Below are positions 2,565 to 21,026 of a stretch of DNA of 21,026 bases, in pieces. The DNA lies in the IMG/VR virus record IMGVR_UViG_3300050025_000251, positions 1 to 21,026 of that record; one strand, written 5' to 3'. Positions within the stretch are counted from its first letter, which is position 1, and each line of letters opens with the position of its first letter. A program made the position numbers and the translations under genes. Under the pieces are notes generated by a model. That model had not been told where the DNA came from, did not search any database, and was given only the letters and a program-made list of their open reading frames with translations. The stretch comes from a virus.

Positions 2565-3005
2565 TCAAGACACTGTGCATGTTCTCCGTACCTCAGCTGT
2601 ACTCAGGGTACAATCTTCTTCGGTAGATAACACTATAGGCTCTCCTCGATAGGCAATTCTACCAGTAAGAGCCTTGTACTCTTCTTCCGAAAACTGCACA
2701 TTCTTGATCATCCATTTCTTTCCTTGCTGACCTGTGCAATACAAGCAAAAAATGCAGTCCACACAGTCTAGACAGTGCATGCAGTGTCTACATTTCTCGC
2801 AACTATCGCAGTTTGAACAGCTGTTACAACTTTCACAATTACGACAATCTGAGCAATTTTCACAGCTATTACAACTCTTGCAAGAAATACAATTTTTGCA
2901 AGAGTTGTTGTCTCCTAACAACTTGGTCAATTCTGCAAAGTTGGCAGCTTGCAGTTGTTCTTTGGTGACCTTAACATCTGTACCAACTTGATCCTTACTG
3001 TGCAT
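2565..3005 (-). CDS. Cysteine-tripeptide-repeat (xxC)n protein
   Basis: 146 aa from ATG at 3005, with GTAGGG about ten bases upstream, 12 bases after the previous stop. Residues 1-35 form a short helical, Lys/Asp/Leu-containing leader. Residues 36-90 carry 19 cysteines placed at exactly every third residue. The residues between are mostly Asn, Ser, Lys, Glu and Asp at first, turning hydrophobic (MH, LD, VD, IF, LY) in the last five repeats. Residues 91-146 form a compact tail with GKKWMIKNVQFSEEEYKALTG and two more Cys. No signal peptide is visible, so the repeat would be made in the reducing cytoplasm. Dense metal binding or a late-oxidised disulfide ladder in the particle are both conceivable. 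I do not recognise a named family. See the separate entry for a possible C-terminal extension. Confidence 0.8.
   Translation of the reverse strand: MHSKDQVGTDVKVTKEQLQAANFAELTKLLGDNNSCKNCISCKSCNSCENCSDCRNCESCNSCSNCDSCEKCRHCMHCLDCVDCIFCLYCTGQQGKKWMIKNVQFSEEEYKALTGRIAYRGEPIVLSTEEDCTLSTAEVRRTCTVS
2736..2900 (-). repeat. 9-bp-periodic cysteine codon repeat
   Basis: Codons for Cys36 to Cys90 of the overlapping gene: TGC/TGT recurs every nine bases 19 times with no break in register. The intervening codons are varied, so this is a diverged protein repeat and not a fresh tandem duplication. Confidence 0.85.
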
Positions 3006-7387: not shown

Positions 7388-8263
7388 ATGTTATCCAATG
7401 ATCCTGCGCACGTCTACATTAGATCTTGGCCGGTCTCAAGAGAGGTAGACACGCATAGACTGACACCACTTCAAATTCATACATATCCTGATGGAGTTCC
7501 CCTTGTACGCAAGCTCCCATATGTGGACACACACGAGAATCTGTCCTTGCTTCTAAGACCACGCGGGATGACTGATTTCATAGCCGGTTTGTTTTGGGTA
7601 GACGCATACCGAGAACGCCACAGCTTGGGGTCTGTTAAGCTAGTTCTTCCCTTTGTACCAGGAGCCAGACAAGATCGCCTCAACAATCAAGGCGACTATC
7701 TATTTACAGCCAAGTCAGTTGCGCACATGATCAATGCCCGAGCATTCAGTTCCGTTGTAATTCTGGACCCACACTCCGAAGTTATCTCAGGATTGATCGA
7801 CCGCTGCAAAGTTGTTCACTCTCACGAACTAGGCATAGTAAAGGAGGTATTAACAGGTCTATACGGCGCAGTGATATCCCCTGATGCAGGAGCCGAAAAG
7901 AGAGCCTCAGCCTTAGCCAAGTGTCTTAATGTACCTCTTTTCCACGCATGGAAAGTACGAAGTTTGGTAGACGGTAGCATCACAGGATTCGGGCATGAAC
8001 CAATCCCCCTTCCCCCTGGTGCAGATAAGAAGTTGCTTATTGTGGATGACATTTGTGATGGTGGCGGAACTTTCGTTGGGCTGGGTAAGTTACTTCACCA
8101 GGAGGGCTACAGACTAGACCTGTTTGTTACACACGGAATCTTCAGCAAAGGCACTCAAATTCTTACAGACTACTTCGAAAGAATATTCTGTACCGACTCC
8201 ATTCTTCCGGCAGAGGGCAATCGTGTAACTGTATTCAACGTATGTGCATCACTTCTTGAGTAA
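7388..8263 (+). CDS. prs: Ribose-phosphate pyrophosphokinase (PRPP synthetase)-like enzyme
   Basis: 291 aa; ATG 7388 with GAGGAG nine bases upstream. The family transfers pyrophosphate from ATP to ribose-5-phosphate, giving PRPP. Conserved elements are in the expected order: PGARQDR (91-97, flexible-loop/ATP region), LDPHSE (126-131, metal-binding DxHxx equivalent), SPDAGAEKR (164-172), the PRPP loop IVDDICDGGGT (218-228) and THGIFSKG (248-255). The chain is somewhat shorter than typical bacterial Prs (about 310-320 aa), mainly at the N-terminus, so allosteric control may be reduced. It is 12 bases upstream of NAMPT, which uses PRPP as co-substrate. This pairing is known in other large phages. 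Confidence 0.9.
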   Translation: MLSNDPAHVYIRSWPVSREVDTHRLTPLQIHTYPDGVPLVRKLPYVDTHENLSLLLRPRGMTDFIAGLFWVDAYRERHSLGSVKLVLPFVPGARQDRLNNQGDYLFTAKSVAHMINARAFSSVVILDPHSEVISGLIDRCKVVHSHELGIVKEVLTGLYGAVISPDAGAEKRASALAKCLNVPLFHAWKVRSLVDGSITGFGHEPIPLPPGADKKLLIVDDICDGGGTFVGLGKLLHQEGYRLDLFVTHGIFSKGTQILTDYFERIFCTDSILPAEGNRVTVFNVCASLLE

Positions 8264-8275
8264 GAGGAACTACTA

Positions 8276-9742
8276 ATGGCAACCCAACTGAATCCAATCA
8301 CCCTTATCGACGGTTACAAACTTGATCATCGTAGACAGTACCCTGAAGGTACTACTCGGGTATACAGCAACTGGACTCCTCGATCTTCCCGATTTCCCGA
8401 CCAAAAAGAAGTTGTCTTTTTCGGACTTCAGTACTTCTTGAAACGATACCTTATGGAAGAGTACGGCCGGTTCTTTGCGAGAGATGTAGAGACGGTGTGT
8501 GATTCTTACTCACGCAGGGTCGATAGCTACTTAGGGCCCAACCAGATTGGAGTTGACCATATTCGAGCCCTACATGATCTCGGCTACATACCTCTTCGCT
8601 TCTGTGCAATTCCAGAAGGTACCCCAGTTCCACTTCGGGTTCCCATGTTGACAGTTGAGAACACTCATCCGGATTTTGCCTGGTTGCCAAATTACTTCGA
8701 GACTTTAATGTCCAGCGTGTTGTGGTTGCCTTGTACCTCAGCCACAACAGCATCAAGGATGTACAAGTTGTTGAAACTTGCAGCTAAGAATACTGGATCT
8801 CCGGAAGAATTTGTCAGGTGGCAAGGGCACGATTTCAGTATGCGAGGAATGGAGGGACCGGAAGCTGCAGCTCTTAGTGGAGCAGGGCATCTTCTGTACT
8901 TCACTGGTACCGATACCATACCAGCTCTCGATTTGATAGAGAGCTATTACGGTCCACTACATCCAGACTACCTTATTGGTGGAAGTGTCGCAGCAACTGA
9001 ACACAGTGTCATGTGCGCTGGAGGAGAAATCAACGAATTGGATACTTTCCGTAGGCTCCTGCACCTGTACCCGCAGGGGATTCTAAGTGTAGTCTCTGAC
9101 ACCTGGGATTTGTGGTTCGTCCTTACAAGGATTCTTCCTGTTCTAAAGACAGAGATCATGGCACGTCCTGGTAAGCTGGTGATCCGACCTGACAGCGGAG
9201 ATCCAGTGGACATCATCTGTGGCAATCCAAATGCTAAGAATGCTCCAGAATACAAGGGGGTGATTGAGCTTCTGTGGGACCTGTTTGGTGGAACCATAAC
9301 TCCAACTGGGCATAGACTTCTTGATTCCCACATTGGTTGTATCTATGGAGATGGAATAACATTCGAGCGTGCAACAGCAATCATGGCACGGCTAGAAGCA
9401 AAAGGTTTTGCATCAGCTAATGTAGTCCTTGGCATAGGTAGCTTCAATTACCAGTACGTTACCCGTGATACCTTCGGATTTGCCATGAAGGCCACTTGGG
9501 TTGAGATAAACGGGAAAGGTATGGACATCTTCAAGAAGCCGGTAACGGATGACGGAGTCAAGAATAGTGCCAAAGGTCGACTTGCAGTAACCACCGATCG
9601 AGATGGTCGTATGGTTCTAATCAAGCAAGCATCCGAGGAACAAGAAAAGGACAGTCTTCTAGGTCCTGTTTGGCAGGATGGAGAATTTCTAGTCCTTGAT
9701 AACTTCAAGGACATCAGAACCAGGGCAGCCCACTATCGATAA
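8276..9742 (+). CDS. nadV: Nicotinamide phosphoribosyltransferase
   Basis: 488 aa, close to the usual ~490 of NAMPT; ATG 8276 with GAGGA seven bases upstream. The enzyme makes NMN from nicotinamide and PRPP, the committed step of NAD salvage. Family features visible: N-terminal YKLDHRRQYPEGTTRVYSNW (14-33), HDFSMRGM (185-192, nicotinamide stacking Phe and Arg), GTDT (211-214), TEHS (241-244, with the catalytic His at 243), IRPDSGDP (303-310, phosphoribosyl binding), and GDGI plus GIGSF in the C-terminal barrel. All expected active-site residues appear intact. No NMN adenylyltransferase lies in this window; the last step would come from elsewhere in the phage or from the host. Confidence 0.95.
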   Translation: MATQLNPITLIDGYKLDHRRQYPEGTTRVYSNWTPRSSRFPDQKEVVFFGLQYFLKRYLMEEYGRFFARDVETVCDSYSRRVDSYLGPNQIGVDHIRALHDLGYIPLRFCAIPEGTPVPLRVPMLTVENTHPDFAWLPNYFETLMSSVLWLPCTSATTASRMYKLLKLAAKNTGSPEEFVRWQGHDFSMRGMEGPEAAALSGAGHLLYFTGTDTIPALDLIESYYGPLHPDYLIGGSVAATEHSVMCAGGEINELDTFRRLLHLYPQGILSVVSDTWDLWFVLTRILPVLKTEIMARPGKLVIRPDSGDPVDIICGNPNAKNAPEYKGVIELLWDLFGGTITPTGHRLLDSHIGCIYGDGITFERATAIMARLEAKGFASANVVLGIGSFNYQYVTRDTFGFAMKATWVEINGKGMDIFKKPVTDDGVKNSAKGRLAVTTDRDGRMVLIKQASEEQEKDSLLGPVWQDGEFLVLDNFKDIRTRAAHYR

Positions 9743-9973: not shown

Positions 9974-10005
9974 AAAGAGAAAGCCAAAGGTGGCCTCTTC
10001 TCTTT
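9974..10005. terminator. Bidirectional terminator between the NAD operon and terL
   Basis: AAAGAGAA (9974-9981) pairs with TTCTCTTT (9998-10005); an inner CCA/TGG stem with an AAGG loop extends it across an internal loop. It lies between convergent genes and overlaps the terL stop. The A-rich and T-rich outer arms give a U-rich 3' end on both strands. Confidence 0.65.
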
Positions 10006-11836
10006 AGCCATTTGATCCGTAATTCTCCATGAGCCCACTGTCCTGCGAAGGTGCAAAGATATCTGGACGTGGGCGCTCTATACAAGAAGCCAGCAAGCAC
10101 AACAACAAAGAATGAAATGCATCATCTGCTTTTCCCGGCGGCTTCTTGTATTCGTTCATCCTGAGTCGCACGTTATACTCGGTGAAGATACTTAGGATGT
10201 CAGAGCCATGCGGGTCCTGGAAGTCTTCCCACCTGGGTAAGTCAATCTTCTTTGCCTTCAAGGCATTGAAGATATCACTCATGACTTCGGAACGGTGGCA
10301 CATCCAACGACGCAGGTTTGGCTCCCAATAGATCTTCTTTTTCTGCCGCGGGTTGTACTGGAACTTCATTACCTTGTTGGCACCAAATCGCTTGATGAGT
10401 TTGTCGTTCGGGTAGAAACCACCACCGTAGTCTACACCTATGATCTTTACGTGTACCTGCGCAAGCATCTGCGTGATTAGATCTAGCTGCTTCTCTGGGT
10501 CTAAGTCTTGCCCCGTGAAACGGTGACACCAAAAGATGGAGAAGTTACCTGTACCAAAGTATCCGCCAAATGAGATATGTGTGAAGCTTGACTCAGTGCC
10601 CCCGCCCCAATCTATTCCGGCGTAGATAGACATACCTTGTGCCAATCTTCGGAAAGACTCTATGTCGCCCAATAGAATCTCAGGCTTGCACACAGATTGT
10701 AATTGCGCTCTGGTAATAGGTCGTACGCCGGAATCATAAGACCTTCCCAACTTCTCGTTCATGAACTGGGAACGGGAGTATTGCTCTTGAGCTATCAGTA
10801 TCTCTCCCCAGTCTACCCATGGGACCATGATTTGAGGAACACGGTACCCCTCAAAAGTAACCTTGTCTCTGTTGTCTTCCCGCATTGGGTTCATGGCAGC
10901 CCATTGCGCCCTGGGGTGCTGCGCAGAAATAGTCTCACCGCACTTGTCGCAGATTAAACCGGTAGACCCTATGTTTTTCTCCGTCAGAACATTCCAATGC
11001 CAAGTACTTGAATCACTAGGTAAACCATGCCTCTCGCACGGTACTACCCATTCGTTCTGTGTGGAGAATTCTGACCAATAGAATTCAATAGTGTTATCTA
11101 CGGACTTAGGCGTACCCGAATACAAGAACATCTTGTACTTGGAGTGAAATGCACATTGCTCAATGACAGGAATATTGTCTATCAAGATATCTTGAATCTC
11201 ATCGATCAGAATTTGATCCGAGGCAATTCCGCGCACTCGATCTGCAGTTAGATACGCATAACGAAGTCTGATTTGCGAATAATTGATGAACTTTTTGAAG
11301 AAGACTGCTTGATTGATAGCTGACGAGGTATATGCACGAAGCAAAGGGGATGCGTCTATCGCATCTTTAATACGATCGTTAGAGAATACTTTTGCCTGCT
11401 CAGCAGATGGAGCTACATACAAAGATCTAAAGTTGCTAACTAGTGCAGAGTAACAGAGCATTCTGTTACCGAGCGTAGTGGTTTTTTCCGTCTGGCGGCC
11501 AAAAACTAGTAGCACTTTGTTGGCCGGAGTATCGTAGACCTTACGAAGGTACTCACGACCCTTGAATGAGAAGTCCGCAATACGTCCAGCCTCAGGTATA
11601 CGAATAGCTGTTTCTGCAAACTCGGACGGAGAGACACCAAGCAGTTCTGTTGATGACGAGGCTCCAGGCAGTATAACTTCTGCAGGTTCTGCATCTATAC
11701 CGAAGTCGACAGCTTCACCATCTTCGTTATAGTCAAAGACTGGCTCTGCTATTCCATGATCGTCGAAGCAGTAGGATAAAGGAATAGTGTGTGCTGCTTT
11801 GAGCAGCTCAGCTTCAGCTAGGGTGATAGTTGCCAT
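10004..11836 (-). CDS. terL: Terminase large subunit
   Basis: 610 aa; ATG 11836 with only a weak GGAT upstream. This is the DNA-packaging motor: an ATPase that translocates DNA into the prohead and a nuclease that cuts the concatemer. Walker A-like GRQTEKTT (113-120), Walker B QILIDEIQD (208-216) and coupling motif YSGTP (239-243) mark the ATPase. CERH (267-270) and CDKC (296-299) form a probable zinc site between domains. The RNase H-like nuclease shows acidic residues in GIDWGG (Asp409), GVDYGG (Asp469) and KADDAFHS (Asp571/572). The gene stands alone on the minus strand; a structured-RNA region lies upstream and a convergent terminator downstream. No small subunit is identified with confidence. 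Confidence 0.95.
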   Translation of the reverse strand: MATITLAEAELLKAAHTIPLSYCFDDHGIAEPVFDYNEDGEAVDFGIDAEPAEVILPGASSSTELLGVSPSEFAETAIRIPEAGRIADFSFKGREYLRKVYDTPANKVLLVFGRQTEKTTTLGNRMLCYSALVSNFRSLYVAPSAEQAKVFSNDRIKDAIDASPLLRAYTSSAINQAVFFKKFINYSQIRLRYAYLTADRVRGIASDQILIDEIQDILIDNIPVIEQCAFHSKYKMFLYSGTPKSVDNTIEFYWSEFSTQNEWVVPCERHGLPSDSSTWHWNVLTEKNIGSTGLICDKCGETISAQHPRAQWAAMNPMREDNRDKVTFEGYRVPQIMVPWVDWGEILIAQEQYSRSQFMNEKLGRSYDSGVRPITRAQLQSVCKPEILLGDIESFRRLAQGMSIYAGIDWGGGTESSFTHISFGGYFGTGNFSIFWCHRFTGQDLDPEKQLDLITQMLAQVHVKIIGVDYGGGFYPNDKLIKRFGANKVMKFQYNPRQKKKIYWEPNLRRWMCHRSEVMSDIFNALKAKKIDLPRWEDFQDPHGSDILSIFTEYNVRLRMNEYKKPPGKADDAFHSLLLCLLASCIERPRPDIFAPSQDSGLMENYGSNG

Positions 11837-15832: not shown

Positions 15833-17077
15833 CTATTTAACCACAACTTTCTTGGCCAGAATAGCTTGCAACGTACCTACCTGTGTAGGTGGAGCGTACG
15901 GCAAATGTGTATGAGTAGCAAGCCACTGCACTAACTGTAGCCCAAGAGGGGCCGGCTCGGAAGCGTCAGGACCACCTATTTTTGTAAGGGGGGCGTCGAT
16001 TGTCTTGATCTTAGCCCAAGTCTCGGTGCTTGAGTCTGCACCAGTGATGGTATGTTCACCTGTGATGGTCTCAGTAACCTTACCGTTCACAGTTACTGAA
16101 CGGTCTCCAGTTACCTGAATGGTCTGGTCACCTCCGACCGTCAAGGAATCATCCTGCTTCACCTCTACCGTACGAGAGCCAGCCTGCATGGAGTAAGAGT
16201 AGCCATCCTTAGATATCCGCAGTACATAGGCCGGGTCTCCTGAAACCTTGCCACTAGCAGGGTCTATGTTACTGGGTGCAATCACAACCTCTATGAATGT
16301 CTTGTCATCACTAGGTCCGCCAGGAGGCTTAGGTTCTGAATCTAACGAACCTACACTTACCTTAATAGAGGCATTCTTATCCTGAGCAAACTCTCTAGTC
16401 AAAAGGGTGAACTCAGTAGGTGCATTGCCCCCAGGGTCTTTCTCTACCGGGTGTACTAGCCAGGACAAGGAACCAGCAGCTGTGTTGAGTTCATAGTTCT
16501 CACAGAAGTCCCGGATGTAATTATTGATAGGGACATAGGCACGTTGGCAAATATTCGTAGACCCTATTTGCAGGACCCCACCCCTCTTTAAGATCAAAAA
16601 GTTCTCATCTCTGCCCTGTATCCATATGTCCCCCGGGTTCATCACAGGACGCCCAGCACGATAGCTAGCATCTGTGGTCTTAGGTGTAGTTGTCCCGCCC
16701 GAGTTGGTAGTCTGAGCTGGAGGCATATCATCAGGACTCTCTACATCCGGATCTTGTGCCTCTTGTTTAACATCCCCAGAGACAGCCCCTGTCACCTCTG
16801 GGGCTGTGATGAAACCCATAACAAACGGAGACTCTTCATCTGAAGGCCAACATAGAACACAGATTGCCCCTACTTCCGGGCAACAGTTGAATCCTTCTCC
16901 GTTGTTGTAGTGCAGGTATGGAGACATCACCTGTACCCCAACCATCTGTTTACCGCTATGTTGAGCCGTCCAGTCCACGGTCATGTTCTGGGTATTCGCA
17001 CCCGCGATTACACCTGTCTCGAATCTAGCTGTTCGATTGCCGGTTCTAGCAGCAGAGTTTCTGAAGGAGGCAGCCAT
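15833..17077 (-). CDS. Baseplate spike protein, gp5/VgrG-like
   Basis: 414 aa from ATG 17077, which overlaps the beta' stop by one base (TAATG), with GGAG nine bases upstream. The N-terminal ~110 residues resemble an OB fold (VGVQVMSPYLHY, then a VGAICVLCWPSDEESPFVMGFI pattern typical of gp5/gpV spikes). A Pro/Thr/Gly linker follows. Residues from about 315-375 have regular short repeats (SLTVGGDQTIQVTGDRSVTV, then NGKVTETITGEHTI), the signature of the intertwined trimeric beta-helix needle. The C-terminal WLATHTHLPYAPPT pattern recurs in phage spike proteins. It would puncture the host envelope during tail contraction. No lysozyme domain is present, unlike T4 gp5. Confidence 0.85.
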   Translation of the reverse strand: MAASFRNSAARTGNRTARFETGVIAGANTQNMTVDWTAQHSGKQMVGVQVMSPYLHYNNGEGFNCCPEVGAICVLCWPSDEESPFVMGFITAPEVTGAVSGDVKQEAQDPDVESPDDMPPAQTTNSGGTTTPKTTDASYRAGRPVMNPGDIWIQGRDENFLILKRGGVLQIGSTNICQRAYVPINNYIRDFCENYELNTAAGSLSWLVHPVEKDPGGNAPTEFTLLTREFAQDKNASIKVSVGSLDSEPKPPGGPSDDKTFIEVVIAPSNIDPASGKVSGDPAYVLRISKDGYSYSMQAGSRTVEVKQDDSLTVGGDQTIQVTGDRSVTVNGKVTETITGEHTITGADSSTETWAKIKTIDAPLTKIGGPDASEPAPLGLQLVQWLATHTHLPYAPPTQVGTLQAILAKKVVVK

Positions 17078-20000
17078 TAGTACCACTCCGGATGTTCTTT
17101 AGGGGGGCGCCCCAGCTCGGCAGCATATACGATCGCCGGGATAGGATGTAGGCTGTGTATGTGACTCTGCCATCCTTGTTGAGCTGCCTGGATAACAGTC
17201 TTTGCCAAATCCTCGTGGTTGAGCTTCGCCATCCAGTCCTCTTGCATATCCATGGGTAGTACGTTTACACCCTTCAGTATAGGCTCGTGAACTATTGGCC
17301 GCTCTCCCTTAGCCATATGCCTATTCAGAGATGATACATATGTAGTAGGAGCAAAGTCACCACGGATAAAGTGTGTAGAAGACCCTGGGTCTTTGATCTT
17401 GGTAAGATTAGTAAGAGCCTTGATCACAATCTCATGGTTGCGTCTACGAATCCCTTCCCCTTTGTACATATTATCTAGATCATTAGCTAGCAAAGCTTGC
17501 ACTGGCTCCAGCCCGGTCAAGGGGAGCATCTCATGCGGATTCACACGGCCTTCTGATATAGGTAGCCCCTTCTTGACTTCCGTGCCTACTACCAGTGGTT
17601 TCTTATCATAGACAGGCAGTCCTCTGGACTGCGGGATATAGTGTCGCTCGCCCTCTATGATCACATTGTGACCACCGGCTGTATCCTTTTCAATCTTAGT
17701 CACCTTCCCATTCACAGTACTCAAAGTAGCAGAACCAGGAAGGTTCTTCGGGAACATGAGTAAGTCTTGTACCTGCTCAAACTGATCAACAAGGGATGAT
17801 TTAGATGCTGCAGTGCCCCCGCCATGAAAAGCCTTCATCGCAAGCTGTGTTGCACGTTCTCCCAAAGCCTGGCCAGCAAGCACACCCACATTCAAGCCTA
17901 TTTCTGGAAGGGTACCATTCTCGGTTAGCCCTATGCATTTTTGACAGAATCCTGGTCCATGCAGACAACGAAGCGGAGACCTTACCACTACCTTGCCTAC
18001 ATTATTGTTCCGAAAAGCACTTCTGAGTTCTGGTGTGATGAGAGTTCCTGTCTTTACGACCTTGTTACCTAGCTTAACATCTGCGGCCGTATACCGATCT
18101 AAGATGTCCTTCTCATCTACAGACAGAGCAATACCTTTGTCTGTGCCACAGTCATGATCTAAGATGAGATTATTCATCGTAGAGTTTATGACCTGCTTGG
18201 TGATGTGCCCAGGCTCTTGTACTGCTTGTACCTTCTGAATAACACCCTTACGCCCACCACTAGTAGCTGTCCAATAGCCGGCAATATCAAGCCCTTCAGC
18301 ATAGGACCTACGTACAGGGTTAGGTAATATCTCCCCCTTGTGATTGGCCATAAGCATGGGAGCGGTACGTATCTGCCGAATGGTATCTATACCTCCCTTC
18401 ATACCCATATTGTGCAGCAACATGAGATTGTTGCCCTCTTCAGGTATAGCTTTTAGATGGGCATTCAATTCGTCTGTAGCCTTCGCATAGGCTTCGATAG
18501 CTTTAGCATCTCTAGTTGGGCCCGACATTTTAGAAACCAGAGCATCGGCTTTAGCCAAAATTCTATCTCTGGCTTCCCGTTCAGGAGCCAAATCCTTTAG
18601 GCCGACAGAGAAGGCAGTCTGGGTAGCCCACATATTTCCCAAGTCTTTAAGCTTGTTGATGGACTGCCCATACTCGTTCTTATGCTCCTTCGCAATGCGA
18701 GTCATCAGCTCTTCTTGGGCTGATGAGTTTAGCGGGTCCTTCTTCTCTAGATACTCCCGTCGCATAGCTTCAGGTAAGGCGCCGGCCACCATGAACCTAC
18801 CTACTGTAGAGTGAATGCCACCAACCTTTACTTGATCTGTGAGCTTGGCTTCTCCTTTTCTTACCGCAGTCTCTACATCCTGAATCGTAGAGAACTCGTG
18901 GTTGGTGACAGCTCCTACACGTGTAAGACCATACAGACCCAATTTACTTTCGCCAGATGGACTATACATAATCCGGCCACTGGCGGGGCTGAATAGGTTA
19001 TTGGATGGAAACATCTTGTAAGCTTCAGCAACGGCATCTGAGCCGATAGGTACAAAAGCTCCCATGCAGTCCCAAACTGCAGCACCATTAGCCATAGTAA
19101 ATGTCCAAGGCCCTGGAACTTTCAGATCATACATGGTTTTGATCTCACCAGTAGCCTTGGAAGATACTACCTTGTCCCAACCTACGTTATCATTCAGAGC
19201 GAGACTGAACCACCTGGAAAGGTATCCAGAACGAATAGACGTATCAATTAGCCGGTTCAAAATCTGTGCTGATATTCTAGTTATACCTCCATCAGATTTG
19301 TGCAAAGTAATGTAACAAGATCTAGCCGCAACATGCTGACCATGCCCCTTTCTTTTAGCTGCACCCAAGCCAAGCAAATGCTTTAACAACTCTTCTTTGG
19401 CCAAATCTGGAAGAGGTACCTTATCTGCTCGACCGTGTGCTATTTTATCGGAACTTCGAAGCTTAGCAAGTGCAGCTCTCTTAGTGGAGTGCTCCAACAC
19501 AATCCAGGTGGCGTCTTGTACAGTACGTATTGAGAATGTAATAACCCAAGATGATTTGCCAGCAGGTGTATGTGTGGGTGTACAGCTAGCCACAAGACCT
19601 AGCGATAATCCAAGAAGCTGGATACTCTCCATCAAATCTTGACTAGTGGTACTGTAGGACATTGAGAATTGCGGAGCTTTGCCACCAGTACCTTTAGTCC
19701 AGTTCACAGTACCATCTGTATCGATCAAACCGCAAAACAGGCCCTTACAAAATTCTGTGGGGAAGTGCAGAAAACCTTCTGGCAGGTGTTTGTTAGCAGC
19801 TCCTTCTCCGACTAGAGGCTCCAACCATAGCCCTAAAGCGGTAGAACTTATACTTGATTTGAATGACTGACATTCATACTCCCCGAACTTGTGCGTAGCT
19901 GAGATGTCGCCAGTATGTGTCTTCTGTGAGATGTACTTACCTATGGTATCCCATTTGTCAGCCACATCTCTACCATCAGCACCATAAGCCAAGTGCACTG

Positions 20001-21026
20001 ATCTACTCTCAGAAGCAGACTTGTCTATTAACTTACCCGTAAAACCATAACTGGGTCCTTTGTTAGTCACCCAACCGTCTCCAACAGTCGCACCCAAAAA
20101 CCAACCTACATCAAATGTAGCTGGTACATCCGCCAACATGGCGGTGGCTCTATTACTCTTTGCTGTGGCGCCGGGTAAAGAGGGTATAGGTGCTGGTCCT
20201 GAATTCAAGTATCGCAAAGTTGGTAACCACATACCTTCAGCATTTGCCGGCACAGCATCATAAACCTCCAAGGTGGCCGGGTTAAGAAGAGCCAGGCTAT
20301 GATCTTCGGAGACGAACATCTCCCGGCCTCTCTCCGTCTCTATCCTCCATTCTTCGCATGCAGGATGCACAGAGTATTCAGTCACCTCTGACATCTCAAA
20401 TGCACCATCACTATACGCTGGTACAAATGTACCAGGTGGTACCTCATATACGCTAACGCCAGCTTCTGTTGTCCGAATTGGATCAGGCAAGTGCGGGAAG
20501 TTTGCAAGGTCTACGATCTTATATGAGAAGAGTTTTCCAGTGTGTGGCATGCCATCAGCATACTTCTCATCAAGTACCGATGCAAGTAGAATCTCGCCTA
20601 TGACGCTATCGCCGTCGAAGTCAGCATTGAATCCACTAGTAACTAGTGGATGTACCTGAATAGCCTTACCACTCACAATTCTGGGTTTGAAAGCCTGAAT
20701 ACCGTACTTGTGTAGTACGGGGTCTCTCTTCAATAGAATAGGCCGGTGAAGGATAACTCTATCCAACGCTCGATTTACTATTTCCCCACCCTCCGCCAAC
20801 TTCTTTTGTGCCGCCAAAGGTGAAACCCCCAATAGGTTTCTCAACTCGCGGATTATGAAAGGCTTGTACAATTCTAGTGCCGCAGCTTTTGGTATACCTA
20901 CCTCATCCAAACTAAGGGATGGTTCCGGGATGATAGTTCCACGCATAGTCATGTCTTGCTTACGTGTAACCAACTGCTCCTGGAAAAAGCCTTCCTTAGG
21001 TTGCCCTACCTTAGAGTCGGTACTTG
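17077..21026 (-). CDS. rpoC: RNA polymerase beta' subunit, bacterial type, with intein; 5' end outside window
   Basis: The frame stays open to the right edge, so the gene is partial; a TTG at 20973 is only an internal codon. The visible part begins at the QEQLVTRKQDM region, matching bacterial beta' shortly before the active site. NADFDGD (20608-20628) carries the three Mg-binding Asp and is interrupted right after it by an intein (19069-20607). Beyond it are PSNNLFSPASGR, the bridge/trigger-helix region with EGLDIAGYW and SGGRKG, the zinc site (DCGT plus CLHGPGFCQKC) and GQALGERATQLAMKAFHGGG. The mature chain is shorter than E. coli beta' and lacks the large trigger-loop insertion. Its stop overlaps the spike gene, so it is expressed with particle proteins. 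The bacterial-like conservation is stronger than in phiKZ-type polymerases. Confidence 0.95.
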   Translation of the reverse strand, partial: STDSKVGQPKEGFFQEQLVTRKQDMTMRGTIIPEPSLSLDEVGIPKAAALELYKPFIIRELRNLLGVSPLAAQKKLAEGGEIVNRALDRVILHRPILLKRDPVLHKYGIQAFKPRIVSGKAIQVHPLVTSGFNADFDGDSVIGEILLASVLDEKYADGMPHTGKLFSYKIVDLANFPHLPDPIRTTEAGVSVYEVPPGTFVPAYSDGAFEMSEVTEYSVHPACEEWRIETERGREMFVSEDHSLALLNPATLEVYDAVPANAEGMWLPTLRYLNSGPAPIPSLPGATAKSNRATAMLADVPATFDVGWFLGATVGDGWVTNKGPSYGFTGKLIDKSASESRSVHLAYGADGRDVADKWDTIGKYISQKTHTGDISATHKFGEYECQSFKSSISSTALGLWLEPLVGEGAANKHLPEGFLHFPTEFCKGLFCGLIDTDGTVNWTKGTGGKAPQFSMSYSTTSQDLMESIQLLGLSLGLVASCTPTHTPAGKSSWVITFSIRTVQDATWIVLEHSTKRAALAKLRSSDKIAHGRADKVPLPDLAKEELLKHLLGLGAAKRKGHGQHVAARSCYITLHKSDGGITRISAQILNRLIDTSIRSGYLSRWFSLALNDNVGWDKVVSSKATGEIKTMYDLKVPGPWTFTMANGAAVWDCMGAFVPIGSDAVAEAYKMFPSNNLFSPASGRIMYSPSGESKLGLYGLTRVGAVTNHEFSTIQDVETAVRKGEAKLTDQVKVGGIHSTVGRFMVAGALPEAMRREYLEKKDPLNSSAQEELMTRIAKEHKNEYGQSINKLKDLGNMWATQTAFSVGLKDLAPEREARDRILAKADALVSKMSGPTRDAKAIEAYAKATDELNAHLKAIPEEGNNLMLLHNMGMKGGIDTIRQIRTAPMLMANHKGEILPNPVRRSYAEGLDIAGYWTATSGGRKGVIQKVQAVQEPGHITKQVINSTMNNLILDHDCGTDKGIALSVDEKDILDRYTAADVKLGNKVVKTGTLITPELRSAFRNNNVGKVVVRSPLRCLHGPGFCQKCIGLTENGTLPEIGLNVGVLAGQALGERATQLAMKAFHGGGTAASKSSLVDQFEQVQDLLMFPKNLPGSATLSTVNGKVTKIEKDTAGGHNVIIEGERHYIPQSRGLPVYDKKPLVVGTEVKKGLPISEGRVNPHEMLPLTGLEPVQALLANDLDNMYKGEGIRRRNHEIVIKALTNLTKIKDPGSSTHFIRGDFAPTTYVSSLNRHMAKGERPIVHEPILKGVNVLPMDMQEDWMAKLNHEDLAKTVIQAAQQGWQSHIHSLHPIPAIVYAAELGRPPKEHPEWY
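19069..20607 (-). mobile_element. LAGLIDADG intein in beta', 513 aa, at the catalytic motif
   Basis: Removing these 513 codons joins NADFDGD to CMGAFVPIGSDAVAEA, restoring the continuous beta' alignment. The N-terminal splicing residue is Ser (20605-20607). Block B reads REMFVSEDHSL with its His at 20299-20301. The homing endonuclease has FLGATVGDG (20074-20100) and LFCGLIDTDG (19711-19740), both acidic residues kept. Block F reads MYDLKVPGPWTFTMANG. The C-terminus is AVWD before Cys+1, in place of the usual His-Asn: Trp replaces the penultimate His and Asp replaces the terminal Asn. Inteins ending in Asp are known to splice, but the double change is unusual. Without splicing, the polymerase would be dead. 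Confidence 0.9.

Follow-up and report, generated by a model that had tools for sequence, protein, structure and literature searches.

The element that interrupts the RNA polymerase gene of a 21-kb virus fragment (IMGVR_UViG_3300050025_000251, 21,026 nt, analysed over its whole length and called the window below) is confirmed, at the level of sequence, as an intein. It sits immediately behind the final catalytic Asp of NADFDGD, in a phage RNA polymerase whose beta and beta' subunits are fused. The explanation we favour, and consider probable as a whole, is that it belongs to a mobile, splicing-competent and virus-restricted family that occupies the site following DFDGD in multisubunit RNA polymerases, and that would use a class 1 route with an Asp-driven third step. 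What is new is best filed as a family of class-1-like inteins that interrupt the RNAP catalytic loop, end in Asp and lack the helper His residues; DFDGD-site inteins were described in no paper found by our literature search, which is not proof that none exists.

The intein and its borders

A single uninterrupted frame (17077-21024, minus strand) encodes the C-terminal part of the multisubunit RNA polymerase, split by the intein segment. Pfam places Rpb1_2, Rpb1_3 and Rpb1_5 on either side of LAGLIDADG_3 (3e-8) and Intein_splicing (1e-4, a score under the curated cut-off for that family). The full empty-allele ORF of a relative (L008) shows the polymerase to be a beta-beta' fusion of 2062 aa. 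All parts lie on the minus strand. The N-extein (20608-21024), part of the fused polymerase gene that runs past the window edge, ends in NADFDGD (20608-20628); the intein (19069-20607) has 513 aa, from Ser1 to Asp513; and the C-extein (17077-19068), which carries Rpb1_3 and Rpb1_5, begins with the Cys+1 codon (19066-19068). Elsewhere in the window, a PRPP synthetase and nicotinamide phosphoribosyltransferase pair (7388-9742, plus strand) forms a phage NAD salvage module, and an ORF at 2565-3005 (minus strand) has a long run of Cys-x-x-Cys repeats.

Relatives without the intein (L008, L009 and L010) join NADFDGD directly to AMGAFVP, with AATGCTGACTTTGATGGAGACGCG as the empty-allele DNA across the site, and the occupied alleles of the window, L002, L003 and L004 read NADFDGD/S...WD/CMGAFVP, where slashes mark the borders. 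These three relatives supply the uninterrupted homologue, joined at the borders, by which an intein is recognised, and because of their direct join the borders GD/S and WD/C are exact. The +1 residue in the window's clade is Cys in every occupied allele and Ala (GCG or GCT) in every empty one. An alignment of the empty allele with bacterial beta' (NADFDGDQMAVHVP, NADFDGDQM) needs no gap, which places the insertion after the third Mg-binding Asp. An earlier note on this DNA had proposed an intein directly after the last Mg-binding Asp, to be checked by aligning the exteins to bacterial beta' and by looking at the join in intein-less homologues; the gapless alignment, run on the empty allele, and the empty alleles themselves, which do join there with Ala for Cys+1, bear this out. 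Of the span 19069-20628 that it gave, position 19069 stands, and 20628 does not, since it takes in the NADFDGD codons of the extein.

Block A is SVIGEILL, with Ser1 as its nucleophile (20584-20607). Block B is Ser-Glu-Asp-His (20299-20310), with S100 and H103 invariant in the alignment. The LAGLIDADG homing endonuclease domain, delimited by Pfam LAGLIDADG_3 and the alignment, lies at 19243-20112 and contains both acidic motifs, GWFLGATVGDG (about 20074-20106) and GLFCGLIDTDG (about 19711-19743). Blocks F and G (MYDLKVPGPWTFTMANGAAVWD, 19069-19134) keep Asp494 at F:4 and have Trp501 at F:13, Trp512 at G:6 and Asp513 at G:7. Both class 1 nucleophiles are present (Ser1 and Cys+1), and the canonical step-3 residues, namely terminal Asn with penultimate His and the block F His, are absent. 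The earlier note had correctly described Ser1, the SEDH of block B, the terminal Trp-Asp and Cys+1; it was right that the C-terminus is atypical, and it overlooked both the missing block F His and the fact that these features are common to a family.

An AlphaFold2 model of the intein (pLDDT 82.1) has the HINT/LAGLIDADG fold. Foldseek with this model matched HEN-inteins, and the best PDB matches were the homing inteins TliVMA and PI-PfuI. With such class 1 LAGLIDADG inteins (PI-PfuI, TliVMA, and the blocks of the Ssp DnaB mini-intein) the window intein shares the HINT plus LAGLIDADG fold, the block A nucleophile, the block B His, the F:4 Asp and the +1 nucleophile; it differs in having Asp for Asn at G:7, Trp at both G:6 and F:13, and Ser for Thr in block B. 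VPGPWTF of the window intein aligns with VPGPHNF of the Ssp DnaB mini-intein.

Asp-ended inteins at the DFDGD site

Viral contigs were searched with DNA patterns for NADFDGD followed by Ser, Cys or Thr, with follow-up within the same records. Same-site inteins ending in Asp were found in 18 viral lineages, 11 of them in cis (ending WD, YD or QD) and seven whose N and C parts are encoded by separate ORFs (ending QD, FD or YD). G:6 is Trp, Tyr, Gln or Phe and never His (0/18), and F:13, seven residues after Asp F:4 in block F, likewise has no His in the Asp-ended family; Asp F:4 itself is invariant wherever block F was found. Block B keeps its His and has Ser in place of Thr (SxDH or SxNH) in the 19 rows where the block was found. 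SEDH and Trp-Asp are common to the same-site family and are therefore not private losses of the window element.

Residue 1 is Ser or Cys in all 18 Asp-ended lineages. Unusual block composition might point to a class 2 or class 3 route, in which the N-terminal nucleophile is not needed, but the constant nucleophile at residue 1 argues against both, and the Asp at F:4, where class 3 has the Cys of its WCT motif, argues against class 3; we find such a route hardly credible. Position +1 is likewise occupied by Cys, Thr or Ser in 18/18 lineages; empty RNAPs with Thr at that position are abundant in viruses, so the members with Thr+1 have a residue often found there anyway. This constancy bears on the idea that the element only cleaves, as autoprocessing without ligation, giving a two-piece polymerase. 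Asp ends without His could favour cleavage, and split RNA polymerase subunits exist in some jumbo phages. The +1 nucleophile is needed by ligation alone, however, and is not only kept throughout but newly placed over Ala in the window's clade, and the break would land in the catalytic loop, so that we judge cleavage alone very improbable.

In several relatives the same site holds natural split inteins: L030 (6769-11288, minus strand), L044, L049, L047/L196 and L016/L195. Between the two halves lie ORFs that match DUF7487 in both L030 and L044; the one in L030 also has a weak match to DUF559 and may be a free-standing endonuclease. L017 and L048 have apparently atypically split inteins with very short N parts (44 and 26 aa), and their C parts end in Asp too (FVFD/T and LVYD/T). 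The virus of L047 (G005) has two beta' genes in one record, one (L196) with the split DFDGD intein and the other (L205) empty (NADFDGDQ). Fractured genes with natural split inteins are matched by L016, L030, L044, L047 and L049, whose N and C halves lie in separate ORFs; as against the fractured-gene inteins, the window element is in cis, and the split members related to it interrupt RNAP beta' and have a terminal Asp.

The first junction search assumed a terminal Asp, and an unbiased reading of the remaining loci then added two members: L236, which ends in His-Asn, and L239, which ends in His-Gln and has its N half on another contig. Both keep the block F His. The same-site total by last residue is 18 Asp, one Asn and one Gln, so the site does not force Asp. 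Nine inteins that the same viruses or relatives of theirs carry elsewhere served as further controls: all end in Asn, eight of them in His-Asn (L206, L208, L209, L210, L216, L217, L218 and L227) and one, in the beta region of L003, in Gly-Asn. A penultimate His is found in 10 of 11 amide-ended inteins and in none of the 18 Asp-ended ones (Fisher p 5e-7, descriptive only, since lineages share ancestry). In these sequences, loss of the His residues goes together with the Asp end. A tree of the splicing domain leaves a single origin of the Asp family neither demonstrated nor rejected (p-AU 0.10), with the L003 beta intein and L236 on long branches; because the family may have arisen once, common descent might by itself account for the association of Asp with His loss.

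Among the inteins at other sites, the one in L003 is a second intein of that locus, 338 aa long and inserted in beta at the conserved GNKG region (GNKGIVT/C...WSGN/CIVPDH); its +1 residue is Cys, where relatives have Arg or Ala. TerL of the relatives L210, L211 and L206 has His-Asn inteins at two sites, and both are empty in the window TerL (10004-11836). L217, a relative of the window head protease (648-2495), has a His-Asn intein in the protease gene.

Cultured phages yielded no same-site member, their weak matches being other LAGLIDADG inteins, and a scan of cell genomes limited to TSN codons yielded only two intein-like matches, L058 and L062.

Mobility and selection

At the DNA level the inteins of L002 and L004 share 98.7% identity, against 76-78% for their exteins, which shows that the element passed recently from one polymerase background to another. 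Occupied alleles in different backgrounds have in common the 21 bases just before the intein (AATGCTGACTTCGACGGCGAY) as well as the Cys codon; empty relatives differ at both. These shared edge bases and codon appear to be the mark of homing with co-conversion, which would explain the arrival of the non-native nucleophile Cys+1. What is expected of a LAGLIDADG homing intein is thus found, that is, the two acidic motifs (GATVGDG and GLIDTDG) and evidence of horizontal movement. The window intein is itself a mosaic, since it is 90-100% identical to that of L002 over the first 540 bases and the last bases and 57-85% identical between. Its ends are nearly identical to those of L002 and L004 while the endonuclease core has strongly diverged, which points to recombination within the element.

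The whole intein has an omega of 0.09-0.13 and its C-splicing region one of 0.09-0.11. For the C-extein omega is 0.05 between intein-bearing lineages, like the 0.035 between empty ones. Between the window and L003, divergence is about equal for inteins (74% identity) and exteins (76-77%), so constraint on the polymerase seems to have persisted with the intein in place. With 513 extra residues in its catalytic loop the enzyme would presumably be inactive, and efficient removal of the intein is the simplest reading. Degeneration of the intein with loss of splicing, in phages whose polymerase is lost or redundant, would fit the non-canonical residues at G:6, G:7 and F:13, but is at odds with an omega of 0.05 in occupied C-exteins and of about 0.1 in the intein, with open frames and with intact endonuclease motifs; we give it very little credence. 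Taken with the predicted fold and the near-identical intein in diverged polymerases, the omega values make the window intein look functional and mobile.

Proposed splicing route and closest known systems

Catalysis of step 3, the His-assisted cyclisation of Asn, is debated, and inteins without Asn and His are usually single oddities. In the review view (PMC4031507), the F:13 His activates the Asn side-chain amide and the G:6 His the scissile bond; neither is required in all inteins, the G:6 His is missing from about 5% of functional ones, and Asp-ended inteins follow the same route, probably with Asp cyclisation. For the present family we propose a class 1 route in which an ester formed at Ser1 would be transferred to Cys, Thr or Ser at +1, and the terminal Asp carboxylate would then take over from the cyclising Asn amide, attacking the scissile carbonyl or breaking the bond in another way. 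A carboxylate would have no need of an activating base, making both helper His residues dispensable; the Asp end and the loss of both His are chemically coherent in that a carboxylate needs no deprotonation. Spread of the element by its endonuclease would target the stretch of the polymerase gene with the most conserved DNA, and the +1 Cys codon would come along by homing.

The earlier note had gone on to suggest that splicing is slow or triggered and makes the polymerase conditional. PolD-loop inteins with terminal Gln do splice slowly, with Gln to Asn speeding the reaction (PMC4031507, PMC8175363), and changes at the penultimate residue tune splicing in phage inteins (PMC5050341). Against this, a native penultimate Gly is faster than His in one phage intein (PMC5050341), no sensor or regulatory feature was seen, and the claim finds no support here, where the ending is fixed in 18 lineages, exteins and intein are under strong purifying selection and the element was recently mobile; we regard conditional splicing as unlikely. 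Most likely, as far as chemistry can be read from sequence, splicing is constitutive and class-1-like with Asp-driven C-terminal cleavage, and the native, His-free Asp end has the look of an established alternative chemistry.

The nearest parallel is found in the Pyrococcus PolD (Pol II) inteins, which interrupt the catalytic loop of a polymerase of the two-barrel type, with an active site related to that of RNAP, and which have a last residue other than Asn (Gln) (PMC4996933, PMC8175363). They differ in being archaeal, in lying before CDGDED where the window intein lies after DFDGD, in having Cys1 and terminal Gln rather than Asp, and in keeping the block F His. Inteins in RPB2, RPA2 and RPC2 of eukaryotes and their viruses are also in conserved RNAP active-site surfaces, but all in the second-largest subunit (PMC1635734), whereas the window intein is in beta'. 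A mycobacteriophage RDF intein is, like the window intein, a class 1 phage intein without the G:6 His; the paper on it treats terminal Asn, whereas the window intein ends in Asp and has lost the block F His too (PMC5050341).

More tentatively, and at somewhat less than an even chance, the cis and split members may form a mechanistic subclass, common in viral RNA polymerases, in which the Asp carboxylate drives C-terminal cleavage without helper His and which evolved with a catalytic Asp at -1. Because 18 lineages of one natural family can be set against His-Asn and His-Gln counterparts at the same site, the roles of G:6, F:13 and G:7 become testable within one extein context. From the split members, natural split inteins whose end is not an amide could be gained. 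NADFDGD of beta' joins the intein hot spots in polymerase active sites, beside the related PolD loop.
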